Made by a program: the position numbers and the translations under genes
Part shown: one piece after another, positions 5,668-19,500 of the stretch
How positions within the stretch are numbered: the first letter of the stretch is position 1
How the letters are laid out: each line of letters begins with the position of its first letter
Assembly: GCA_019638635.1 (NCBI GenBank)
Contig: JAHBTM010000022.1
Location: 1-33,913 of the forward strand
Length of the DNA stretch: 33,913 nucleotides
Reading direction: 5' to 3'
From: Ferruginibacter sp.
GTDB lineage: Bacteria > Bacteroidota > Bacteroidia > Chitinophagales > Chitinophagaceae
Notes under the pieces: model-generated
Seen by the model: the letters and a program-made list of their open reading frames with translations, nothing else
Told to the model about the DNA's origin: nothing
Database searches by the model: none

Positions 5668-7263
5668 TTGTTAAAGGCTTTTGTTTACGGCGTTTTATGG
5701 TGCGCATTATGTACAGGATGCGAACGGAGAGATACCGTACACTCCCGTTCTGTTTTCAGGTATAATGAAACGTCGGGTATCCACTCACTTGATCCTGCTT
5801 TTGCAAGAAATCAATCCACCATGTGGGCCGTTCATCAGTTGTATAACACACTCGTTGAAGTAGATGAATATTTACAAATTGTGCCATCGCTTGCAAAATC
5901 TTGGGAAATAGCTGACAGTGGCCGAACGATTATTTTCAGGTTGCGGACGGATGTGTTTTTTCATAACAGTGACATATTTCCGGGCGGAAAAGGCAGGAAG
6001 CTGGTTGCGGAGGATGTGGTGTATAGTTTTCAGCGTTTGATTCAGCCGGAAACGGCGAGTCCGGGTGCATGGATTTTCAACACAAGGGTTGCAGCCCAGG
6101 AACCTTTCAAGGCCGTCAACGACAATACCTTTCGGTTACGCCTGAACGAACCTTTTCTTCCGATACTCGGTGTTCTCTCTATGAAGTATTGCTCTATCGT
6201 GCCCCGGGAAGCGGTACAAACGTATGGTGCTGCATTCAGGCAACATCCGGTGGGTACAGGTCCTTTCAGGATGGTACACTGGAAGGAAGGGCAGGCACTG
6301 ATCCTCGAAAAAAATCCAACCTATTTTGAACGGGATGCGCAAGGCAAGCAATTGCCTTATCTCGATGGAATCAAAGTTACCTTTCTTGAAAATAAGGCTT
6401 CAGAATTTGTGATGTTTCGTCAGGGACAACTCGATTTCGTAAACGATATGGATCCTACATTTAAAGATGAAATCTTAACCCGTGGTGGACAACTCAAACC
6501 GGTTTGGAACAACCGGATTCAGTTGCACAAAGGGCCATACCTGAATGTAGAATATCTGGGCATCCTAACCGATACCACCTCAAAGAGTCCTTTACAACTG
6601 AAGGGGGTTCGTAAAGCACTACAGTGGGGCATCCCGAAAGAAAAGTTATTGATGTACTTGCGCAATTCAATCGGAGAGCCTGCACAATACGGATTCATAC
6701 CCAATGGATTTCCCGGGAATTCCCGATACATGCATGGATACACCTATCAACCCGATTCTGCCCGTGCCTGGTTGAAACGTTCCGGATATAATCGTGAAGA
6801 AATTTTACTAACCACTGTTCCGCAATATGAGGCCATCGGTTCTTTTATTGCAGGCGCATGGCAGGAGATAGGATTGAACGTACGTGTGGAACAAGTGCCC
6901 AAATCGGTATTGCTACAACGTACTTCAAAATCGGAAATACAGTTCTTTCGCGGTAGTTGGATTGGCGATTATCCGGATGAAGAAAATTTTATGAGCGTTT
7001 TTTATGGTAAAAATCCTACACCACCGAATTATACAAGATATAAAAACCCGATGTACGACCAATGGTATGAAATGGCCATTCGTGAACCCGATGTTACACA
7101 ACGCAGGAAATATTACCGTTGGATGGATAGTTGCGTGGTTGCTGATATTCCCGTGATTCCTTTATGGTACGATATGGTGATTCATCTCGTACAACCCAAT
7201 GTGAGCGGATTTAAAACCAATCCGTTGAATATACTGGAACTACGACGCGTTCGAAAAGATTGA
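5668..7263 (+). CDS. ABC transporter solute-binding lipoprotein, peptide type (SBP_bac_5)
   Basis: The protein has 531 aa. The start is TTG at 5668: an in-frame TAG at 5647-5649 lies just upstream, no ATG falls between, and TTG gives a proper lipoprotein signal with lipobox LCTGC (Cys18). A later ATG would remove the signal. The SBP_bac_5 fold is supported by HSLDPAFA near residue 36, LAKSWEIADSGRTIIFRLR, VVYSFQRL and VGTGPFRMVHWKEGQ. Family members bind oligopeptides, nickel or similar ligands and hand them to permease and ATPase subunits. No permease or ATPase gene is present here, so this is an orphan binding protein and its partners must be elsewhere. The divergent peptidase next door suggests peptide scavenging, but that is inference. 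Confidence 0.88.
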   Translation: MLKAFVYGVLWCALCTGCERRDTVHSRSVFRYNETSGIHSLDPAFARNQSTMWAVHQLYNTLVEVDEYLQIVPSLAKSWEIADSGRTIIFRLRTDVFFHNSDIFPGGKGRKLVAEDVVYSFQRLIQPETASPGAWIFNTRVAAQEPFKAVNDNTFRLRLNEPFLPILGVLSMKYCSIVPREAVQTYGAAFRQHPVGTGPFRMVHWKEGQALILEKNPTYFERDAQGKQLPYLDGIKVTFLENKASEFVMFRQGQLDFVNDMDPTFKDEILTRGGQLKPVWNNRIQLHKGPYLNVEYLGILTDTTSKSPLQLKGVRKALQWGIPKEKLLMYLRNSIGEPAQYGFIPNGFPGNSRYMHGYTYQPDSARAWLKRSGYNREEILLTTVPQYEAIGSFIAGAWQEIGLNVRVEQVPKSVLLQRTSKSEIQFFRGSWIGDYPDEENFMSVFYGKNPTPPNYTRYKNPMYDQWYEMAIREPDVTQRRKYYRWMDSCVVADIPVIPLWYDMVIHLVQPNVSGFKTNPLNILELRRVRKD

Positions 7264-7282
7264 TTCCATTCCTCAATTCAAT

Positions 7283-7840
7283 CTATGGTTTACCGGATGG
7301 TTTTAATTTGTGTTTGTACACTTTTTGGAATTTCTCCACTTTCGGACGCACCACCAAAGCACAGTAATTATTTTCAGGATGCTGGTTGAAATAATCGGTA
7401 TGGTAATCTTCGGCAGGATAGAACACAGTAAATGCTTCAATGGCTGTTACAATCGGTGAGGCATACACGCCACTCGATTCTAATTGTTGCCGGTAGTTTT
7501 CAGCCACTTCTTTTTGTTCCGGACTATGATAAAAAATAACACTGCGGTATTGTGTACCAATGTCGTTCCCTTGTCGGTTCAATGTAGTAGGATCGTGTGT
7601 ATTCCAGTACACTTCCAGCAAGTCAGCATATGAAATAACCGATGGGTTAAATATGATTTGAAGCACTTCTGCATGTCCGGTATGTCCTTCACAAACCGTT
7701 TTGTAATCAGGGTTTTCCAGGTGCCCGCCGCTGTATCCGCTTTTTACGCTCAACACTCCGTTCAATTGTTGAAAAATTGCTTCTGTACACCAAAAACAAC
7801 CGTTTCCCAGTGTGGCGGTTTCAAGATTTGAAGTTTCCAT
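7283..7840 (-). CDS. msrA: Peptide-methionine (S)-S-oxide reductase, cytoplasmic
   Basis: The protein has 185 aa from the ATG at 7838-7840. It reduces methionine-S-sulfoxide in proteins, using thioredoxin. The active-site motif GNGCFWCTEAIF has its catalytic Cys at residue 15. Other family marks are GYSGGHLENPDY, GHTGHAEVLQI, FWxTHDPTTxNRQGxDxGTQYRS (here YWNTHDPTTLNRQ) and the C-terminal NNYCALVVRPKVEKF. An in-frame TTG at 7870 would add ten residues, but a perfect -7 box (7868-7875) overlaps that codon, so it cannot be on the mRNA. There is no signal peptide, unlike the paralogue at 11360-12001. It converges with the solute-binding protein gene, 19 bp apart. Confidence 0.95.
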   Translation of the reverse strand: METSNLETATLGNGCFWCTEAIFQQLNGVLSVKSGYSGGHLENPDYKTVCEGHTGHAEVLQIIFNPSVISYADLLEVYWNTHDPTTLNRQGNDIGTQYRSVIFYHSPEQKEVAENYRQQLESSGVYASPIVTAIEAFTVFYPAEDYHTDYFNQHPENNYCALVVRPKVEKFQKVYKHKLKPSGKP

Positions 7841-7867
7841 ATGAGGGTTTCGTGTTTTAAATCTTAA

Positions 7868-7875
7868 CAAAGATA
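7868..7875 (-). promoter_or_regulatory. -7 box of the msrA promoter
   Basis: The minus strand reads TATCTTTG, a perfect TAnnTTTG. A TTG 18 nt upstream (7894-7896) may be a partial -33 element. It excludes the TTG at 7870 as the msrA start. It is divergent from and interleaved with the mutS2 -7 box (7903-7910). Confidence 0.55.
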
Positions 7876-11359: not shown

Positions 11360-12001
11360 TTATTCCTTCAGTTTAGATTTAAATACTTTTCTGAATTTGT
11401 CAATCTTAGGCGTGATTACCGCCCGGCAATAGGGCGCGTTGGTGTTGTTTCTGTAATACGATTGATGATAATCTTCTGCAGGATAAAACCTCGAAGCTTT
11501 TGTAATTTCTGTTACTACCGGTTTGGCATAAACGCCGGATGTGTTTAATTCATTTTTATAATGTATCGCTTTAGATTGTTGTGATGCGTTGTGGTAGAAC
11601 ACAGCACTGCGGTATTGGGTGCCTACATCTGCTCCCTGGCGGTTGAGCGTTGTTGGGTCGTGGGTTTCCCAAAAAACTTCCAGCAGTTCATCGTAGGAAA
11701 TTATAGTAGTGTCGTAGATAATTTGAAGACACTCTGCATAACCGGTGGTGCCACTGCTCACGGTTTCGTACGTAGGGTTGGGAGTTTGGCCACCCATATA
11801 ACCGGAAGTAACTTTTACTACACCTTTCAGTTGTTCGAAGATGGCTTCTGTACACCAAAAACAACCGTTGGCCAACGTGGCGGTATCGGTATAAGTTAGT
11901 GTGGTTGTGTTTTGTACACCAATATCATTTTTGGATGACACCTGAGCACAGGAAGGCAAAATAAATAACAGCAGCAGGGTAGCGGAAACAATTGTTTTCA
12001 T
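11360..12001 (-). CDS. msrA: Peptide-methionine (S)-S-oxide reductase, exported lipoprotein
   Basis: The protein has 213 aa from the ATG at 11999-12001. The lipoprotein signal MKTIVSATLLLLFILPSC ends at Cys18, so the enzyme should sit on the periplasmic face of a membrane. The catalytic domain begins about residue 45 with NGCFWCTEAIFEQLKG and keeps GYMGGQTPNPTYETV, FWETHDPTTLNRQG and the C-terminal APYCRAVITPKIDKF. An in-frame ATG at 12016 would add five residues, but a perfect -7 box at 12018-12025 leaves it upstream of any plausible transcript start. It is clearly a paralogue of the cytoplasmic MsrA at 7283-7840. Together they give repair of oxidised methionine in two compartments. No MsrB is in the window. 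Confidence 0.94.
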   Translation of the reverse strand: MKTIVSATLLLLFILPSCAQVSSKNDIGVQNTTTLTYTDTATLANGCFWCTEAIFEQLKGVVKVTSGYMGGQTPNPTYETVSSGTTGYAECLQIIYDTTIISYDELLEVFWETHDPTTLNRQGADVGTQYRSAVFYHNASQQSKAIHYKNELNTSGVYAKPVVTEITKASRFYPAEDYHQSYYRNNTNAPYCRAVITPKIDKFRKVFKSKLKE

Positions 12002-12017
12002 GGAGACGTGTTTCATG

Positions 12018-12072: not shown

Positions 12073-12420
12073 TTAAAATGAAGCGTTCAACTGTCGTTTA
12101 CCCTCTTCCGTCATACAATCAGCACTCCATGGTGGATCAAAAGTGATGTGCGTTTCCACTGTTTTACCCGGAGCATACTGCTGCACAGCGCGAGTAGCCA
12201 TCTCCTGAAGGGTGGCACCCATCGGACAATGAGGTGTGGTAAGCGTCATGGTGATATGGATGGTTTGGTCATCCGGCAACTGTATGTCGTAAATCAAACC
12301 CAGGTCTACTATATTAACCATCAATTCAGGATCAATGACGGAATAAAGCGTCTGCAGCATGTTGCATTTTTCCTTGTAATGTGGATCGGTTATTTCAAGC
12401 TCCATATGCAGGGATTTCAT
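12073..12420 (-). CDS. DUF59 (MIP18/PaaD-SufT-like) iron-sulfur cluster assembly factor
   Basis: The protein has 115 aa. Family marks are VIDPELMVNIVDLGLIYDI near residues 28-46, the TTPHCPMG motif with the conserved Cys65, and DPPWSADCMTEEGKRQL at the end, as in PaaD/SufT-type proteins. Such proteins help mature Fe-S proteins in the cytoplasm. It is the last gene of a five-gene operon headed by the Ric-like repair protein. Its ATG shares one base with the stop codon of the lipoprotein gene before it (TAATG), which points to translational coupling. In this setting it probably rebuilds clusters lost under nitrosative or oxidative stress. That role is inferred from context. Confidence 0.9.
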   Translation of the reverse strand: MKSLHMELEITDPHYKEKCNMLQTLYSVIDPELMVNIVDLGLIYDIQLPDDQTIHITMTLTTPHCPMGATLQEMATRAVQQYAPGKTVETHITFDPPWSADCMTEEGKRQLNASF

Positions 12421-12884
12421 TATTCAAAATACTGATGATACGTAGCCAGGTGATTCACCAATGCGGCTACGGAATCAATGCTGGCATCCGATGAGGAAAA
12501 TGTTTTCAGATGTTCCTGTACCGGTTTCAGGAAATGATGCAGTTGGTTATGTGCCTCGCCTTCCATCGTACATTGTTTGATGATTTCCTGAAATGCTTCG
12601 TTCAAAGGGGTAGACATAGCCTGTGGGGTGGATTTTGAATCCATTCCGTTTTTAATGATACCTACCATCTTTTTAATACCTTCTGTAGTTTCAACATTGG
12701 CTTTCCATTTTTGTCCGTTGTTTAATTGAACTACGGGAACAGCCTGGACAACTTCCGGTGTCGGTGTCGGGTGTTCATGTGCATGCGTTTCGTGTGTGTC
12801 ATTATTCACTGCAGTTTTTTCCTGTGGTTGACACGATGCGATGAAAAATGGTGTAAGCATAAACAAGATTGAAATACGTTTCAT
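12420..12884 (-). CDS. Small lipoprotein of unknown function with a His-rich N-terminus
   Basis: The protein has 154 aa. The signal MKRISILFMLTPFFIASC ends in a lipobox with Cys18. Right after the lipid anchor comes a flexible, His- and Pro-rich stretch (HETHAHEHPTPTPE, residues ~30-43) that could bind a metal or heme. The mature domain (about 55-154) is helical, with GQKWKANVETTEGIKKM at its start and a conserved-looking AHNQLHHFL near residue 110. I do not recognise a named family. It sits fourth in the operon, 9 bp after the 12-TM gene and overlapping the DUF59 gene by one base, so it is very likely a partner in the same stress response, perhaps with the membrane protein. Confidence 0.85.
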   Translation of the reverse strand: MKRISILFMLTPFFIASCQPQEKTAVNNDTHETHAHEHPTPTPEVVQAVPVVQLNNGQKWKANVETTEGIKKMVGIIKNGMDSKSTPQAMSTPLNEAFQEIIKQCTMEGEAHNQLHHFLKPVQEHLKTFSSSDASIDSVAALVNHLATYHQYFE

Positions 12885-12893
12885 GGTATTGTT

Positions 12894-14165
12894 TTATAAA
12901 GGTGATTGAATAAACTTTTCTTTAGTTGGAAGCATGATCATGCCGAGTAAATTGAGTAAGTAAATAGAAGCAACTCCTATCCAAACAACCATGGCAATTT
13001 GAATGATAGGGAGGTTCGACAAGGCAATCCCTGTCCCGAGCAATGCAATGGCGGCAATAAGCAATACAAGTTGTACGCTAACCCAGGAAGATTTATACAG
13101 ATGTTTCGGAAGTATTCCAGATGTGCCATTCAGTTGTTTTTTGTAATGTGTATTCCAAATCATGAACGGCAGGGTTTTGAATGTTTTCCCCAGAATGATT
13201 CCGGAAATAAATCCCATGAACAACAATGTTCCGTAAAGAACGGCTGGTGCGGTTCCCTGCACAAAATAAATGAACGGTATCGTGCACACGGCGACTAATA
13301 AACAGATGACTGAAACAAGTGTATGCATTACCGGTATATCCACTTTATTTCTTAGCCTTTTGCTTGCAGCGTCATAGAGGAACATCAGCCAACAGGCAAT
13401 ACCTGCCAGCATAATAACGGCATAGAGTATACTCCGAACCCCGGGTTCATTAAAGTATCCATCTAGCATAAATCCTGTAAGGGCAAGGTTTTGAAGAATG
13501 AACGCCCGGGTGAGTAAGTGTGTTTTGGTGGAATGGCCTACCACAAACATAGGAACCAATTTACTGCTGACACCCGTGATGAGTTGCACAAACCATCCAG
13601 CCAGACCGGCATGTGCATGTAGTTTAAGTATGTTTATATGATGCTGCGAAAAGAATGGGTTGTACAGGTGAATCGCCAGCAGGAGGCCGATGAGTACCGT
13701 AATTAGTAACCAGGTTACAGAGGAGGTGATGAACAAAGCATGAATGTTTTTGTTGAACGATCCATACGTTCCACATACCTGTATCCAGCAGGTTATAACC
13801 GAGATTGCAATCAGTGTGCCACCAGTAATCATCAACCATCCGGTGGTGAAATTCCTGAATGAAAATACCAACAATACCGTGCCGGTAGTTAAGGTGTACC
13901 AGGAGAAAATGCTGAGTGGATACATAAATAATTTTCGTTCACTCAATACCGGTAGTAACTGATACAATGCTCCGAAAATTACCATAGTGCCCCATCCCAA
14001 TGCAGCGGTATGTACCATAGAGAGCAGGTGCGGATTGAAATAGTGGCCCGTAAAAGCATCCGCACTCAGATACATCATGACGGTTAAAATTAAGAAGGCC
14101 AACGCACCCGTCAGATAAAACGGAAGTACATATTTTAAAGGAGTGGATGGTGCCGGCGAATACAT
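12894..14165 (-). CDS. 12-TM membrane protein resembling NnrS / heme-copper oxidase subunit I
   Basis: The protein has 423 aa and about 12 hydrophobic segments, with short loops. The N-terminal part holds PHLLSMVHTAALGWGTMVIFGALYQLLP (H46, H52; quoted for its motif order: H-x5-H then GW and FGA), which recalls the heme-binding helix of cbb3-type subunit I and of NnrS. Further His are at H142, H166, H175-H176, in LKLHAHAGLAGWF (H183, H185), H211 and H281. I do not see the Tyr-containing or three-His copper-site pattern of a true oxidase, so whether it reduces oxygen or NO cannot be told. Third gene of the operon, 10 bp from its upstream and 9 bp from its downstream neighbour. Context (Ric, DUF2249, Rrf2) suggests heme-dependent NO handling at the inner membrane. 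Confidence 0.75.
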   Translation of the reverse strand: MYSPAPSTPLKYVLPFYLTGALAFLILTVMMYLSADAFTGHYFNPHLLSMVHTAALGWGTMVIFGALYQLLPVLSERKLFMYPLSIFSWYTLTTGTVLLVFSFRNFTTGWLMITGGTLIAISVITCWIQVCGTYGSFNKNIHALFITSSVTWLLITVLIGLLLAIHLYNPFFSQHHINILKLHAHAGLAGWFVQLITGVSSKLVPMFVVGHSTKTHLLTRAFILQNLALTGFMLDGYFNEPGVRSILYAVIMLAGIACWLMFLYDAASKRLRNKVDIPVMHTLVSVICLLVAVCTIPFIYFVQGTAPAVLYGTLLFMGFISGIILGKTFKTLPFMIWNTHYKKQLNGTSGILPKHLYKSSWVSVQLVLLIAAIALLGTGIALSNLPIIQIAMVVWIGVASIYLLNLLGMIMLPTKEKFIQSPL

Positions 14166-14175
14166 TTGTACATGG

Positions 14176-15006
14176 TTATTTATGTTGAATTAAAAGTTGA
14201 ACATCTGTTTCGCTGTGCTGTACAATCATTACTATCAGGGGCGTGGTGTCCATGGCTTCCAGCAAATGAACAGGTATACGTTTATGTAATACATACAGCA
14301 CTTCCTCTCTTTGCATGTTTTGTACGGCTGCCAGAATCTGTTGCATGGGTAAGGGCATTTCAAGGTGCCGCACGTCCAGCGTTATTAATTTGTGGGCAGG
14401 TACCGCCATCAATGCTGATTGAAAAATATCACCTTTAACCATATTGTATTGCAGGTGTACTGTGGTTGTTTTACTGGCCGTTTCAGGTTTACGTATGTAG
14501 GTGTGAAATTCATACGGATGTATTGCTTCTGTGTAACAAACCCCTCTGTTGTTCTTTTCAAGCAAGGCAATGAGCGGTTCAGGCTTGAAAGAATTAATGA
14601 TACAAAGTGTTTGACCTACAGGCAATACTTCAAGTTGTAAAAGGATATTGGAAAGCGGGTCTTTTCCCTGCGACAGCTCTTCACGAACATCATATAGCGC
14701 TATGCTTTCCCGGTTTAGTTGTTTGTACCATTCTGGTATCGGTTCCATTTTTTCACTGGAAGATGTTGGTTGATTCATTTCAAATTCAAACCCCAGGGGT
14801 TCTAATGCCTTTTTAAAATCATTCAATGAGCATCCGCCAATTTTTGCGGCCTGTGCCAGATTTACCCTGGGCGCCATCCATTTTCGAAGGATTGGATTGT
14901 GCAATTTCCTGAAATGGGTTGAGATACCCGAAATAACCTCAACTGCATCTCGATGATGACGGAGTATCGTGCTCAGGCGTGTATCTGCAGAAATTTTCAT
15001 GCTCAT
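14176..15006 (-). CDS. DUF1858-DUF2249-DUF2249 protein
   Basis: The protein has 276 aa and appears soluble. Residues 1-75 look like a DUF1858 helical domain (ADTRLSTILRHH, then AAKIGGCSLNDFKKALEPLG with Cys59). Residues ~104-172 form a DUF2249 domain (LYDVREELSQGKDPLSNILL, then GQTLCIINSFKPEPLIALLE), and a second, more diverged DUF2249 follows at ~195-275 (LITLDVRHLEMPLPMQQILA). These domains are common beside Ric/hemerythrin, NnrS and NO reductase genes, but no biochemical role is established for them to my knowledge. Second gene of the operon, 11 bp after ric. An alternative ATG two codons later (14998-15000) would be equally acceptable. Confidence 0.85.
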   Translation of the reverse strand: MSMKISADTRLSTILRHHRDAVEVISGISTHFRKLHNPILRKWMAPRVNLAQAAKIGGCSLNDFKKALEPLGFEFEMNQPTSSSEKMEPIPEWYKQLNRESIALYDVREELSQGKDPLSNILLQLEVLPVGQTLCIINSFKPEPLIALLEKNNRGVCYTEAIHPYEFHTYIRKPETASKTTTVHLQYNMVKGDIFQSALMAVPAHKLITLDVRHLEMPLPMQQILAAVQNMQREEVLYVLHKRIPVHLLEAMDTTPLIVMIVQHSETDVQLLIQHK

Positions 15007-15017
15007 GGGTTGATCAT

Positions 15018-15959
15018 TTACTGTTTTATAAGTGCAGAAACTTTGGAAAACAAAATGTTATTCTCTAAGTGTATGTGCATGTGCAAATCATTTTCAAAAG
15101 CCTCCATTTTATTAAAGAGATATGCATAGCTGTTGCAGGCATCTTCCGGTAATGTGTAATGATTTGTGAGTTTTCTGAAATATTGCAGGTCCTCACCGGC
15201 CACTTCATGTTCACGTACCATGAGGTTTATAACTTTTTGAATGGCATGTGCATCTTCCGGTGAAGTGTTAGGTCCTTCACTTAGTAAATTCAATTCTTTG
15301 ATAGCCGGGAATAAAATTTCTTCTTCTTTTACTAAGTGTAATTGTAACTCCTCCAGAAAATGTCTGACTCCCTGCACCAGTCGTTTTAGCTCCGGGTGTT
15401 GATGTTCATGATGGGCTGCAACTTTTTCAGCGAGCGACATCAATATTGGAGATTGTTCCTTTACAAAACGGTGATGTGTTTCAACAATATAATCTGCCAA
15501 CAGGTTCGGCGACCACTTTGTCATGTCTTGTGCAGGATGTGTCACCACTTCGTCTACACGTTCGAGTGCTGCATTGATTTCTGCCTCTGAAATCCCGGCT
15601 GCTTCACCGGCCTCTTTCAATGTTTTGTTACCACCACAACAAAAATCAATCCCCATCTTTTTAAAAACTTCTGCCTTTCGGATATCTTTCGCTACCATTT
15701 CTCCTACGGTTTCAGCATGGCCTGCTTCCTGGTTTTTACTGATTCTGACGCGCCATGTATTTGGTCCTTCCTCCAGGTATTTCCAACTAAAAGTATTTCC
15801 TCTTTCACCCAATAACTGGTAATACAAAGGTTTGGGGTCGTGGTCGTTATTGATAACAAATCCTTCGCCGTTCTCCAGCGCATCAAAATGTTTGAAAATG
15901 GTTGGATGTTTGAGCTTGGGTTCAATTTGTGTTACGATCAATTCTTCAATGAGTATCAT
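15018..15959 (-). CDS. Di-iron Fe-S cluster repair protein (Ric/YtfE/ScdA type) with N-terminal DUF2249
   Basis: The protein has 313 aa. Residues 1-75 are a DUF2249 domain (DPKPLYYQLLGERGNTFSW). Residues ~82-138 are ScdA_N/DUF542, including MGIDFCCGG with C107 and C108. Residues ~148-313 are a hemerythrin-like di-iron domain with His/Glu ligands in VETHHRFV, LHLVKEEEILFP, MVREHEVAG and HMHIHLENN. Ric proteins restore Fe-S clusters damaged by NO or peroxide, by supplying iron or by removing NO. Standard Ric has about 220-245 aa, so the DUF2249 at the front is an extra domain. First gene of the operon. Its promoter (TTTG at 16021-16024, 21 nt, TATGATTT at 15992-15999) is covered by a palindrome shared with the rrf2/kinase region. 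Confidence 0.92.
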   Translation of the reverse strand: MILIEELIVTQIEPKLKHPTIFKHFDALENGEGFVINNDHDPKPLYYQLLGERGNTFSWKYLEEGPNTWRVRISKNQEAGHAETVGEMVAKDIRKAEVFKKMGIDFCCGGNKTLKEAGEAAGISEAEINAALERVDEVVTHPAQDMTKWSPNLLADYIVETHHRFVKEQSPILMSLAEKVAAHHEHQHPELKRLVQGVRHFLEELQLHLVKEEEILFPAIKELNLLSEGPNTSPEDAHAIQKVINLMVREHEVAGEDLQYFRKLTNHYTLPEDACNSYAYLFNKMEAFENDLHMHIHLENNILFSKVSALIKQ

Positions 15960-15991
15960 GTTTCTTTTTTTATGGGATTAAATAATGATTA

Positions 15992-16015
15992 AAATCATAC
16001 TAAAATGTCTTATTT
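15992..16015. promoter_or_regulatory. Candidate Rrf2 (NsrR-like) operator, copy 1
   Basis: Read toward ric: AAATAAGACA - TTTT - AGTATGATTT. The arms are inverted repeats matching at 7 of 10 positions. Both 10-bp arms recur base for base at 16503-16526, where the 4-bp centre is AAAA. Identical arms around a changed centre are what a dimeric regulator's site would leave. Length and layout resemble Rrf2-family sites. Which protein binds is inferred from the neighbouring rrf2 gene. Confidence 0.6.
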
Positions 16016-16024
16016 TATTTCAAA
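15992..16024 (-). promoter_or_regulatory. Promoter of the ric operon
   Basis: On the minus strand TTTG (16021-16024), a 21-nt spacer and TATGATTT (15992-15999). The -7 box keeps TA and TT of TAnnTTTG but is weak, as expected of a regulated promoter. The candidate Rrf2 operator covers the -7 box and most of the spacer. Confidence 0.45.
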
Positions 16025-16029
16025 AAAAA

Positions 16030-16464
16030 CTACTGTCTTTTCAGGTATGCATCCGATTGCACCGTCATATCTCTAAAATGTTCCAACGTAGCTTGTTTAT
16101 ATATTCTGTACACTTCTTTTCTGGTTTTTTTATATTCATGATGGATAGGACAGGGGTGTTTTTCGGAACAATAGTGTAAACCCACGCCACATCCCGTAAA
16201 AATTTTGTCGCCGTCTACTGCCAGTACAATGTCTGCCAGAGAGTTTCGGGCATCCTTCTCCGTGAGGTAAAAACCACCGTTTCTCCCTTTGCTGGATTGT
16301 AAAAACCCTTTTTTGCTCAACGATTGAAGAATCTTACCTATAAACAATTCCGGAGAATCAATGTTGGCCGCAATTTCCTTAATGCTCACCATGCGCTGCT
16401 CGTTGGAATGTTGTGCAACATATATCATGGCACGCAACGCATATTCACATGTTTTTGATAACAT
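16030..16464 (-). CDS. Rrf2-family [Fe-S] transcriptional regulator, NsrR-like
   Basis: The protein has 144 aa. The N-terminal winged helix is typical of the family (MLSKTCEYALRAMIYVA, then SIKEIAANIDSPELFIGKIL and KGRNGGFYL). Three cysteines at C92, C99 and C105 (C-x6-C-x5-C) fit a [2Fe-2S] or [4Fe-4S] ligand set as in NsrR, IscR and RsrR. NO destroys such clusters and releases the DNA. It has its own consensus promoter, 65 bp and more upstream of ric, so it is transcribed separately from, though in line with, the ric operon. A 24-bp palindrome overlaps its -33 box, consistent with autorepression. NO sensing is inferred from the controlled genes; IscR-like Fe-S sensing is the main alternative. 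Confidence 0.9.
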   Translation of the reverse strand: MLSKTCEYALRAMIYVAQHSNEQRMVSIKEIAANIDSPELFIGKILQSLSKKGFLQSSKGRNGGFYLTEKDARNSLADIVLAVDGDKIFTGCGVGLHYCSEKHPCPIHHEYKKTRKEVYRIYKQATLEHFRDMTVQSDAYLKRQ

Positions 16465-16482
16465 TCCGGTAATTTTTCAGGA

Positions 16483-16514
16483 CAAAAGTACAACAAAAAT
16501 TAAAATAAGACAAA
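16483..16514 (-). promoter_or_regulatory. Consensus promoter of the rrf2 gene
   Basis: The minus strand has TTTG (16511-16514), a 20-nt spacer and TACTTTTG (16483-16490), an exact Bacteroidota -33/-7 pair. The gene starts 18 nt downstream of the -7 box. The candidate operator (16503-16526) overlaps the -33 element. Confidence 0.7.
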
Positions 16515-16526
16515 AAAGTATGATTT
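16503..16526. promoter_or_regulatory. Candidate Rrf2 (NsrR-like) operator, copy 2
   Basis: On the plus strand AAATAAGACA - AAAA - AGTATGATTT, with the same arms as the site at 15992-16015. It overlaps the -33 box of rrf2 and lies 56 bp upstream of the sensor-kinase start. Its orientation toward the kinase is the same as copy 1 toward ric, so it may control both divergent genes. Confidence 0.6.
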
Positions 16527-16582
16527 AATTTTTTAAGCCCTCAAACCTATCCTATTCTGATTCCATCCTTTAACCAGTATAT

Positions 16583-19500
16583 TTGGTAAAACAACCGGTA
16601 CAATTGAAATTCAATGTAGTTTTCTTTTTTTTGGCCCTGGGAGGAATGTTGCATTTTCATACAGCATCTGCACAATCTTACCGTTATGTGCGCACCTATA
16701 CGGAACAACATGGACTGAGTGATAATCGGGTGACCTGTTTTTATAAAGATGTTCATGGTTATGTATGGATTGGAACACGCAACGGATTAAACCGGTATGA
16801 CGGTCATTCTTTTAAAGTATATAAACCAACCAGCAAGCAATCCATTTCAAATGAAATCATCAACGATATAACCGGTGATAGTGCAGGGAATATTTGGGTT
16901 GCTACTATGAACGGACTCAACCGGCTTGATCATGCAACCGGAAAATGGACTACCTGGATGCCCGACAATAAGAACAAACAAAATGCATTGCCCAATAATT
17001 TGGTTTGGGATATCGAATTGGATAAAAATGGAAAATTATGGATTGCATCAGATGTTTTCTCTTTTGCTTCATTGGATTACACAAAGAATCAATTTGATTT
17101 ATACGATTGGCCGGGGTTCGTAAAAACCATCAGCGGAATTCGGACACCGAAAGGTTATCATTCCATCCTCAGGTTTGTACAATCCAATAGTGATACCTGT
17201 TGGCTGGGAACCAATAAGGGATTGGTGATGTTGAACATCCGTACCAAACAATTTACGTATCTGGGGGCAGCGTACAATGATCAGCTTTCTGACATGCAAT
17301 ATGATTCCATTCGCCGAAAAGTATTGCTGGTTACAGAAGAGGGAAGTCTTTGGGAGTATGGATTGGATAGCGGCACGTTTAATGTGCATCAACCAGAATC
17401 AGAACCTTATCCTTCGACGCATTTCAATGCATTAGAAACCCATGAGCATTGGCTGGCTTCTGCCGGCGGCATCATACGATATGGGAATCGGACTCCGGTA
17501 CGGATGCATCATGTTCCCGGCCTGGACTTTTCCATTCCTCCCGGTGGTGTACATAGGGTGTATACAGATGATCAACAAATGATCTGGATTGGTACACCCA
17601 ATGGTTTTAGTTTGATAGATTCCCGTGATCAGTCGTTGCGCTTTGTTCCACTTACACCGGCATCCGATAAAGATGGCGTTAATCGGATGACCAGTGTGTG
17701 GTATGATGATGCCACTGAATTTTATTTTGTTACCTGTAGAAATCCGGCCGGTGTATTTATGATAGATAAAAAATCAGGTCGCATTCAATCAATTCAAACA
17801 GATGCATCCGGTAAACGATTGCCTGAATGTAATTTAATTAAAAAGGTGGCAGGGGATATATGGTTACTTACTTCGTCTGCGGTTTACCGTTATCATACCA
17901 CTTCCGGTATATTTAAGCCATTTCCTACACCATTCGATATTTCGGGAGTGCAGTTTACCGATGTGCTGCAGGACGCTTCCGGGAATATCTGGTTCTCTAC
18001 CTTTGGTGAAGGTGTTTTTTATTATGATGCACGCGATAAGGCTTTTAAACGAATCATTACATCCACAGATACTTTTTTGTTAAGAGGAGCGACTGCGCTG
18101 GAAAGGGATATAAGCGGCCAATGGATGTGGGTGGCTACTTATGGAAGTGATTTGTATCGGTATCACGTACAAAATAATTCAATGGAGGTGTTTTCTGAGA
18201 GCTTGAAGCATACATTGTACAAACCATTAAACCTTGTCAATGATCTTGAAACGGATCATCAGGGAAACATGTGGGCTGCAACCCATGCCGGGGGGGTGTT
18301 TACTTACAGTGAACGTTTAAAGTTTTTTCAGCCGTTTGATATGATGAACGGTTATCGGTACAATGAATATCTCGCCTTGAAAAAGGGCAAGGGAAACATG
18401 TTGTATCTATTGTCCAGAAAAGGGGTTTCGTACATCGACATCACAAAGCCCCAAACGGAACAGGTAATTCCCTATCTGTCGGCTTTCTCATCTTTTGGTT
18501 CATTTGCTGAAGTGCCGCATCGAATGTTTTATGATGTACAAGAAAATGAGTTGATTGTACCTGTTGCAGGAGGGTTGTTATTTTATAATCACGAACCACA
18601 ATACCCAATAGAAGGTTTTAAAATTGTAGCCGATGAGGTTTTCGCAGAATCGGGCACCATTGAAATGAAGGATGAAGGTTATTTTCAACTGTCGTTAGAT
18701 CACAAAAGATTATCTATACATTTTGCAGGATTGTATTACGGAGCAACACCCGTTATGTATCAGTACAAGATGGAAGGGCTGGATAAAGATTGGATTCAGG
18801 CCAATCCATTGCTGATTGCGGAATATCAAAATCTTCCTAAGGGACATTATTCATTTCAGATTCGGGCTACAGATGTAAACGGCGTAGAAATGGCCCGCAG
18901 TGTGCCGGTTGTGTTTTATGTGCAACCCCCATTCTACGACACGTGGTGGTTTAAGTTACTGGTTACAGTATGTGTGCTATGGATTGTATGGCGTGTGATT
19001 CATCATTTACAGAACCGTATTCGGGATGAAAGGATATTGAATCAATTTGCCACCTCATTGTATGGTAAAAACAGTGTGGAAGATATTTTCTGGGATGTAG
19101 CTTCGAACTGTGTGAAGTGGTTAGGCTATCCGGATTGTGTGGTGTATCAACATGATGAAAAACGAAAGGTATTAGTACAACGGTCAGCTGCCGGGCCTAA
19201 AAATCCGAAACAGGTACGTGAAATATTCAATCAGATTGAATTGCCCCTCGGAGTAGGCGTTGTTGGGTCGGTAGGAGCTACAGGTAAAGCAGAGCGAATA
19301 TCCTACACCTTAAAGGATAAACGGTATGTGGTGGATGATGCCATTCGGTTGTCAGAAATAACGGTGCCTATTAAAATTGATGGAAAAGTGTTTGGAGTAA
19401 TCGATTCGGAACATCCACAAAAAAATTATTACAAACGCAGGGATATGCGCATGCTTAAAAAAATTGCAGCCATATGTGCGGAACGTATTTCTAAATTCAT

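Follow-up and report, generated by a model that had tools for sequence, protein, structure and literature searches.

Paired candidate operators of an NsrR-like Rrf2 regulator around rrf2 in Ferruginibacter and related Bacteroidota

Which protein reads a 24-bp site that stands on both sides of a single regulatory gene, and which genes would it control? The question is raised by a stretch of 33,913 nt from Ferruginibacter sp. (GCA_019638635.1, contig JAHBTM010000022.1, positions 1-33,913, forward strand), the whole of which is called the window here. One copy of the site, the candidate operator O1 (16503-16526, no strand assigned), reads AAATAAGACA-AAAA-AGTATGATTT on the plus strand and lies in the promoter of rrf2, and relatives carry an equivalent site before rrf2. 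The other copy, the candidate operator O2 (15992-16015, no strand assigned, read on the minus strand), lies between rrf2 and ric. It begins 14 nt past the rrf2 stop codon and ends 32 nt ahead of the ric start. The best explanation as a whole, given a probability of about 0.85, is that O1 and O2 would be operators of the encoded Rrf2 protein and that nitric oxide (NO) would relieve repression of rrf2 and of the ric operon.

Two copies of one site and the genes around them

An earlier note on this DNA had described a twin site of 24 bp with identical arms and a changed centre. Both copies were recovered exactly: AAATAAGACA-N4-AGTATGATTT occurs twice in the window without a mismatch over the 20 arm bases, and the centre alone differs (TTTT in O2, AAAA in O1). 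With up to three mismatches allowed, the window held 2 matches, where 100 dinucleotide shuffles gave 0.02 on average; one of the two matches by necessity, as the pattern was taken from that copy. The site had also been called a palindrome. The inverted repeat, with arms identical between the copies, was upheld; the palindrome is imperfect, since the left and right arms match at 7 of the 10 positions of the symmetry. When it is set beside the sites of relatives, a 9-6-9 operator layout seems likely, AAATAAGAC-N6-GTATGATTT, with one canonical half (AAGAC type) and one variant half (ATAC type).

The genome of origin (2.57 Mb in 127 contigs, 97.5% complete) was searched with the symmetric form AAATMAKACW-N4-WGTMTKATTT. 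O1 and O2 were the only matches with fewer than three mismatches; 9 more were found at exactly three, and the reversed control pattern gave 8. Random occurrence over this genome, which the earlier note would have taken as evidence against an operator, was not seen, and the sites stand at rrf2 and the ric operon only.

Bacteroidota promoters follow the consensus TTG (-33) and TAnnTTTG (-7). By this consensus, the rrf2 promoter on the minus strand has its -33 TTG at 16511-16513, inside O1, and its -7 box TACTTTTG at 16483-16490, separated by 20 nt, which agrees with the earlier placement of O1 over the -33 box. Exact TAnnTTTG boxes are common before orthologs: 30 of 35 dereplicated ones (from the best 80 of 580 relatives) have one within the 50 nt ahead of rrf2, with 1.6 expected from mononucleotide shuffles. 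A further exact -7 box, TATATTTG at 16578-16585, is positioned for the divergent kinase gene and is also present at locus L073. It overlaps the listed TTG start of the kinase gene at 16583; because of this overlap the kinase may start at TTG 16604 instead.

The gene rrf2 (16030-16464, minus strand) encodes an Rrf2-family regulator of 144 aa with the cysteine pattern C92-X6-C99-X5-C105 and the wing motif Lx3Gx6Gx2GGx2L, which runs from L49 to L67. The protein passed the superfamily cutoffs (PF02082, 98.5 bits against 30; TIGR00738, 90.7 against 73.3). It passed none of the NCBIfam equivalog models, scoring 45 against 182 bits for NsrR (PRK11014), 50.2 against 207.55 for IscR (TIGR02010) and 58.7 against 193 for RirA (PRK11920). 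In 14 aligned sequences, the window included, C92 and C99 are invariant and C105 is nearly so, the three-cysteine arrangement of NsrR type, and these residues would most likely be the ligands of an Fe-S cluster. In Streptomyces NsrR, the acidic fourth cluster ligand is Asp8. E7 of the window protein, invariant in the 14 sequences, stands opposite NsrR residue 8 if the alignment is ungapped (match ranges 3-127 and 4-127) and is a possible fourth ligand.

The genes behind rrf2 lie on the same strand. Directly after the rrf2 stop there is a TTTTTTTTG run (16021-16029, minus strand), where many relatives have T runs or A/T tracts. The gene ric (15018-15959) encodes an Fe-S cluster repair di-iron protein with the domain order DUF2249 - ScdA_N - hemerythrin (TIGR03652, 222.8 bits, cutoff 204.7). 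It is followed by genes for a DUF1858/DUF2249 protein named from its domain matches (14176-15006), a COX1-like membrane protein (12894-14165; PF00115, 20.4 bits, below the cutoff of 34.8), a small lipoprotein-like protein without a family (12420-12884) and a DUF59/SUF-associated protein (12073-12420; PF01883, 53.7 bits). The gene order at the COX1-like and DUF59 genes is the same in Kaistella loci, and an NnrS-like role of the COX1-like protein is a guess. Two msrA-like genes, named by eye, lie at 7283-7870 and 11360-12016, and one of the two comes immediately past the DUF59 gene. On the other side, genes for a kinase and a NarL-like regulator adjoin O1 in divergent orientation. Of the 80 loci (best 80 of 580 relatives), some of which are short, a single one has a kinase homolog at E<=1e-20. 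Judged from these loci, the adjacent kinase is outside the conserved unit, and a kinase-linked element was rejected on the same count.

Conservation of the sites among Bacteroidota

An Rrf2 match at E<=1e-10 was found in 47 of 78 genomes, a set that includes the own genome. In the nearest relative, G033 (Rrf2 88% identical), both sites flank rrf2, one departing from the symmetric form by 1 mismatch and the other matching it fully. At two mismatches, the symmetric window pattern has matches in 61 of the 78 genomes, and the control pattern matches many too. Among the matches listed, which leave out the sites of G083, G084, G087, G088 and G090, a pair of sites is present in the own genome and G033 only.

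A species-genome collection was scanned with the 14 aligned Rrf2 sequences and the best 80 of 580 relatives were kept, including Chitinophagaceae, Weeksellaceae (Chryseobacterium, Kaistella), Sphingobacteriaceae and others. Many of these 80 carry an upstream palindrome, AATTMAGAY-N6-RTCTKAATT in the window clade (window class) and ATAAAAGAY-N6-RTCTTTTAT elsewhere (main class). In a consensus-free test, 21 of 35 dereplicated orthologs (from the best 80 of 580) had an upstream inverted repeat in which at least 8 of 9 positions pair across a centre of 6 nt, with 1.8 expected; such counts are not independent because the loci are related by descent. The axis of the repeat lies 44-54 nt before the start in 17 of the 21. 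A single mixed consensus matched at 13 or more of 16 positions in 17 of the 80 upstream regions (best 80 of 580; 1.15 expected) and at a threshold of 11 in 29 against 25.5 expected; it set apart mainly the window clade. By eye, a recognisable upstream site was absent in L096 (inside an operon), L105, L125 and L135. One Bacteroidota-like rrf2 locus (L091) stands under the name Azovibrio restrictus, and its contig is probably misbinned.

Regulator copies and operator copies were found together in two genomes. Of the two Rrf2 paralogs of Kaistella haifensis, one (L079) stands beside the near operator class and the other (L119) beside the main class. Genome G102 has three paralogs (L179, L188 and L120) with an operator copy before each.

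The operator classes can be set beside a residue of the wing. In the available part of PMC9338935, the wing motif is described as a trait of Rrf2 regulators. Wing residues 59-64 of Streptomyces NsrR touch the operator ends, and IscR P61 is aligned with NsrR R62. By the wing motif, R61 of the window protein would occupy this spot. R61 is present in 15 of 15 near-clade proteins and P in 63 of the 65 others (best 80 of 580 relatives). In the tree, the near clade (the window and 14 rows) forms one branch at 100/100, with the bootstrap not settled, and the window branches first. Because the near clade forms a single branch, the link between R61 and the operator class counts as one evolutionary event. 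The sister locus L085 already has R61, yet it carries the main operator class. L073, as the nearest relative with a broken rrf2 frame, was excluded from the dereplicated set and the tree; its rrf2 match (6951-7378) is split in two near residue 104, which may be an assembly error near the contig end.

A blind sample of 395 Bacteroidota genomes was drawn irrespective of Rrf2. Exact main-class (sister-form) sites numbered 22 in 16 of these genomes, against 0 for the reversed pattern, and 20 of the 22 precede rrf2, cupin-rrf2, ric, nirK, nor or nos genes. They stand before a NorB-type NO reductase gene (6 of 22; PF22085 in 6/6), nirK (5; TIGR02376 passed by 5/5), rrf2 (3), ric (2; TIGR03652 passed by both), a cytochrome gene followed by nosZ (2; TIGR04246 at 918 against 625 in L238, by likeness in L239), a cupin gene followed by rrf2 (1) and a norC-like cytochrome gene named by eye (1). 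Of the remaining two, one precedes a P-type ATPase gene and one has no gene within 330 nt. At nine loci (L223, L228-L233, L235 and L237) the start was not found by script. Small cupin genes behind operator copies were seen in L204 (PF07883, then rrf2) and, by eye and about 620 nt downstream, in L197. An Rrf2 match at E<=1e-36 was found in 9 of the 16 motif genomes against 11 of 378 others (Fisher p 2.8e-9, own genome excluded, kinship uncorrected). No excess of the window class (AATTMAGAY type) was found in the 395 genomes, with 3 sites against 2 for the control, and no recognised NO gene follows any of the 3. The support for the window-class operator is its synteny inside the clade.

What lies behind the sites was also classified in relatives. 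In 18 genomes, 26 main-class sites were found at one mismatch or fewer, against 2 for the reversed control. Eighteen of the 26 stand before rrf2 or an rrf2 paralog, partly assigned by coordinate or sequence match. Three stand before ric or a ric-like gene; those of Chitinophaga rupis and Niabella drilacis pass TIGR03652, and the Arachidicoccus gene is ric-like (86 of 205 bits). The others precede a truncated globin gene (PF01152; 1), a hemerythrin-PAS gene (1) or genes without evident link (3; L180, L186, L187). The L187 gene (1513-2819) encodes a 423-aa membrane protein, and 12 nt separate its start from the one-mismatch operator copy ahead of it. It was dropped as a COX1-like protein because it has no Pfam or NCBIfam match and reaches only E 0.046 to the window gene; it is possibly a new regulon member. 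In Chryseobacterium lacus and Kaistella antarctica, ric is preceded by window-class sites unlinked to rrf2 (0 and 1 mismatch), and both ric genes pass TIGR03652. Five further window-class sites among the matches listed resemble chance (L154, L166 and L190-L192). In Chryseobacterium, the operon behind rrf2 has the order nirK - SUMF1-like - SCO-like - cytochrome c - ric - NorB-type reductase, the -like names being given by eye (TIGR02376, 358 against 296; TIGR03652, 243 against 205; PF22085, 221 against 29).

The second site behind rrf2

O2 has counterparts in relatives. All 15 loci of the window clade have a first site with at most two mismatches, and 10 of them have a second one within the same limit, at +445 to +451 relative to the rrf2 start. 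Of the five loci without it, L076 and L077 have a site at three mismatches and L078, L080 and L086 have none. A strict second-site pattern was written, like the near-clade pattern, after sites had been seen. Among 80 regions behind rrf2, those of 79 loci (from the best 80 of 580) and that of the window, 36 have a match to it, with 0.045 expected from a mononucleotide shuffle that guards base composition only. In the dereplicated set 13 of 36 regions have one (from the best 80 of 580). A loose pattern was too permissive (62 of 80 regions, best 80 of 580; 21.8 expected). The centre of the second sites is A-rich and conserved (consensus ATAAAAGATAAAAAGGTATTAATA), unlike that of the first sites, and O2 of the window is without that centre. 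In the window clade, the gene after the second site is ric (L076-L084 and L086) or a COX1-family oxidase gene (L071, L072, L074 and L075; Pfam checked for L071), and L073 ends there. ATGAT-N4-ATCAT, an FNR/Crp-like sequence, occurs once in the window (15985-15998; 0.07 expected) and overlaps the right half of O2, so that the two may form a composite site.

The earlier note had placed O2 over the -7 box of a ric promoter, and this claim was given up. The candidate box TATGATTT differs from TAnnTTTG in 2 of 6 positions, and the second sites of the 11 relatives examined do not preserve it. Of the 36 strict second sites (best 80 of 580 relatives and the window), one has an exact -7 box nearby, whereas 22 of the 26 strict first sites do, and the second site lacks a consensus promoter. 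The ric -7 box is therefore unsupported and O2 may be an in-operon site. Such a site would act as a roadblock, or as a loop partner of O1, and would part rrf2 from the genes behind it instead of being the operator of a second promoter. The position of the sites is consistent with this: 31 of 36 strict second sites lie 12-17 nt past the rrf2 stop, and the next gene starts 11-39 nt behind in 11 of the 12 cases measured. However, the next gene is 144-148 nt away in two nos-linked cases, and a promoter could be non-consensus. As for a loop, the O1-O2 distance is 509-512 in 12 of 17 cases, mostly because the length of rrf2 is nearly constant, so this spacing does not bear on helical-phase looping. 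The in-operon role, which is compatible with the best explanation, is held at somewhat under even odds.

Readings of the site pair

How does this system compare with the Rrf2 regulators already known? Like NsrR, the NO-sensing Rrf2 repressor of Proteobacteria, Bacillus and Streptomyces, the window protein belongs to the Rrf2 family and has three clustered cysteines. Its operator stands at its own gene, as described for nsrR of Streptomyces in the available part of PMC9338935. Exact sites in relatives precede ric (dnrN/ytfE), nirK, genes for NorB-type reductases and nosZ, an NO-detoxification and denitrification set of NsrR type; ric, nirK and norB are also in the published NsrR regulon as far as the available part of PMC1274295 gives it. 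There are differences. The protein scores far below the NsrR model cutoff, and no hmp gene, the best conserved of the NsrR targets, was recognised behind a classified site. The operator is of AAKAY-N6-RTMTT type, not the published gATGyAT-N5-ATrCATc (PMC1274295, available part). The latter gave 12 matches at three mismatches in the window, with 6.7 expected and none at O1 or O2; a canonical NsrR box at these sites was thus rejected, in line with the remark in the earlier note that the arms do not look like known NsrR sites. IscR, RsrR and RirA, further Fe-S regulators, share the family and the wing motif (PMC9338935, available part). The equivalog cutoffs of IscR and RirA were missed, and the targets here are NO and denitrification genes.

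NO regulators of the HcpR/FNR type, which are reported in Bacteroides and Porphyromonas, respond to similar stress. A likeness to them is that in Chryseobacterium the Rrf2 operator has FNR-like boxes on its upstream side. These TGAY-N4-RTCA boxes lie 81-91 nt before rrf2 (L108, L111, L112, L116, L122, L131 and others, mostly Chryseobacterium) and occur in 23 of 80 upstream regions (best 80 of 580; 0.5 expected) and in 2 of 35 after dereplication. The protein family and the box differ, the HcpR2 motif being GTAACnnnnGTTAC in the available part of PMC1274295. Neither the motif of O1 and O2 nor any Rrf2 operator in Bacteroidota was found in the open PMC literature at the level of titles and abstract openings, and an earlier prediction in subscription journals or regulon databases is possible.

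In our reading, O1 and O2 would serve as operators, of a type of their own, for an NsrR-like Rrf2 protein that represses NO genes and its own gene. The proposal of the earlier note that the site is a candidate Rrf2 operator was supported, as was the conservation before orthologous operons that it had named as a check, by the repeat upstream of 21 of 35 orthologs against 1.8 expected, by the pair in 10 of 15 clade loci and by the 22 blind sites against 0. The sequences themselves show the family of sites, its place before rrf2, its tie to ric, nirK, nor and nos genes and its scarcity elsewhere; from these we infer binding by Rrf2, the Fe-S cluster, NO as the signal and repression. An Rrf2 dimer with an Fe-S cluster on C92, C99 and C105 would bind both O1, where the -33 box of the rrf2 promoter lies, and O2 between rrf2 and ric. 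Bound Rrf2 would keep rrf2 and the operon ric-DUF2249-COX1-like-lipoprotein-DUF59 low. NO or reactive nitrogen species would attack the cluster and Rrf2 would release the DNA, whereupon repair and detoxification genes would be turned on together with more repressor. The site pair thus probably switches on an NO defence operon.

Could the same protein bind the same sites and sense something else? It might respond to Fe-S or iron status or to the redox state in the style of IscR, RirA or RsrR. No NCBIfam equivalog model was passed, the scores for RirA, suf_reg and IscR being slightly above that for NsrR (58.7, 53.5, 50.2 and 45 bits); moreover, Ric repairs Fe-S clusters and the operon holds a DUF59 (SUF-associated) gene. 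The exact sites in relatives with nirK, NorB-type reductase, norC-like and nosZ genes, however, fit NO or nitrite, and no isc or suf gene was seen, largely by eye, among the first genes behind classified sites. Sensing of this kind is considered improbable. Less probable still is that the sites belong to another regulator, such as the NarL-like protein that is encoded beside O1 as the divergent partner of the kinase and would be its response regulator, or a Crp/FNR-type protein for which the single ATGAT-N4-ATCAT overlapping O2 would speak. The sites persist in loci that, in all but one case among the 80 (some short), have no kinase homolog, the FNR-like boxes of relatives are mostly separate and upstream of the operator, and the two paralogs of Kaistella haifensis go with two operator classes. 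Chance, or a shared terminator-like inverted repeat, can be dismissed even though short inverted repeats are common in A/T-rich sequence, given the 0.02 matches expected in the window, the absence of a terminator-like element in 15900-16700 and the conservation across genera (21 of 35 orthologs against 1.8, and 22 against 0 in 395 genomes).

With O1 and O2 read as Rrf2 operators, a wider picture can be drawn, tentatively and with the odds rather against it. One Bacteroidota lineage of Rrf2 with its own operator code might govern ric, nirK, nor and nos operons. A second, promoterless operator right behind its own stop might form an in-operon gate, at which the repressor gene is read and the genes behind it are blocked. 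In the window clade, R61 (P in most sister groups) might have changed first and the outer operator arms afterwards, from ATAAAAGAY to AATTMAGAY.

To conclude, the control of nitrite, NO and N2O reduction in Bacteroidota is little described in the open literature found. With an operator and its regulator defined, the regulon would become predictable in other genomes of the phylum and the control by NO directly testable. The two operator classes, together with the pair of paralogs in one species, would offer a clear case of a regulator and its site changing together.
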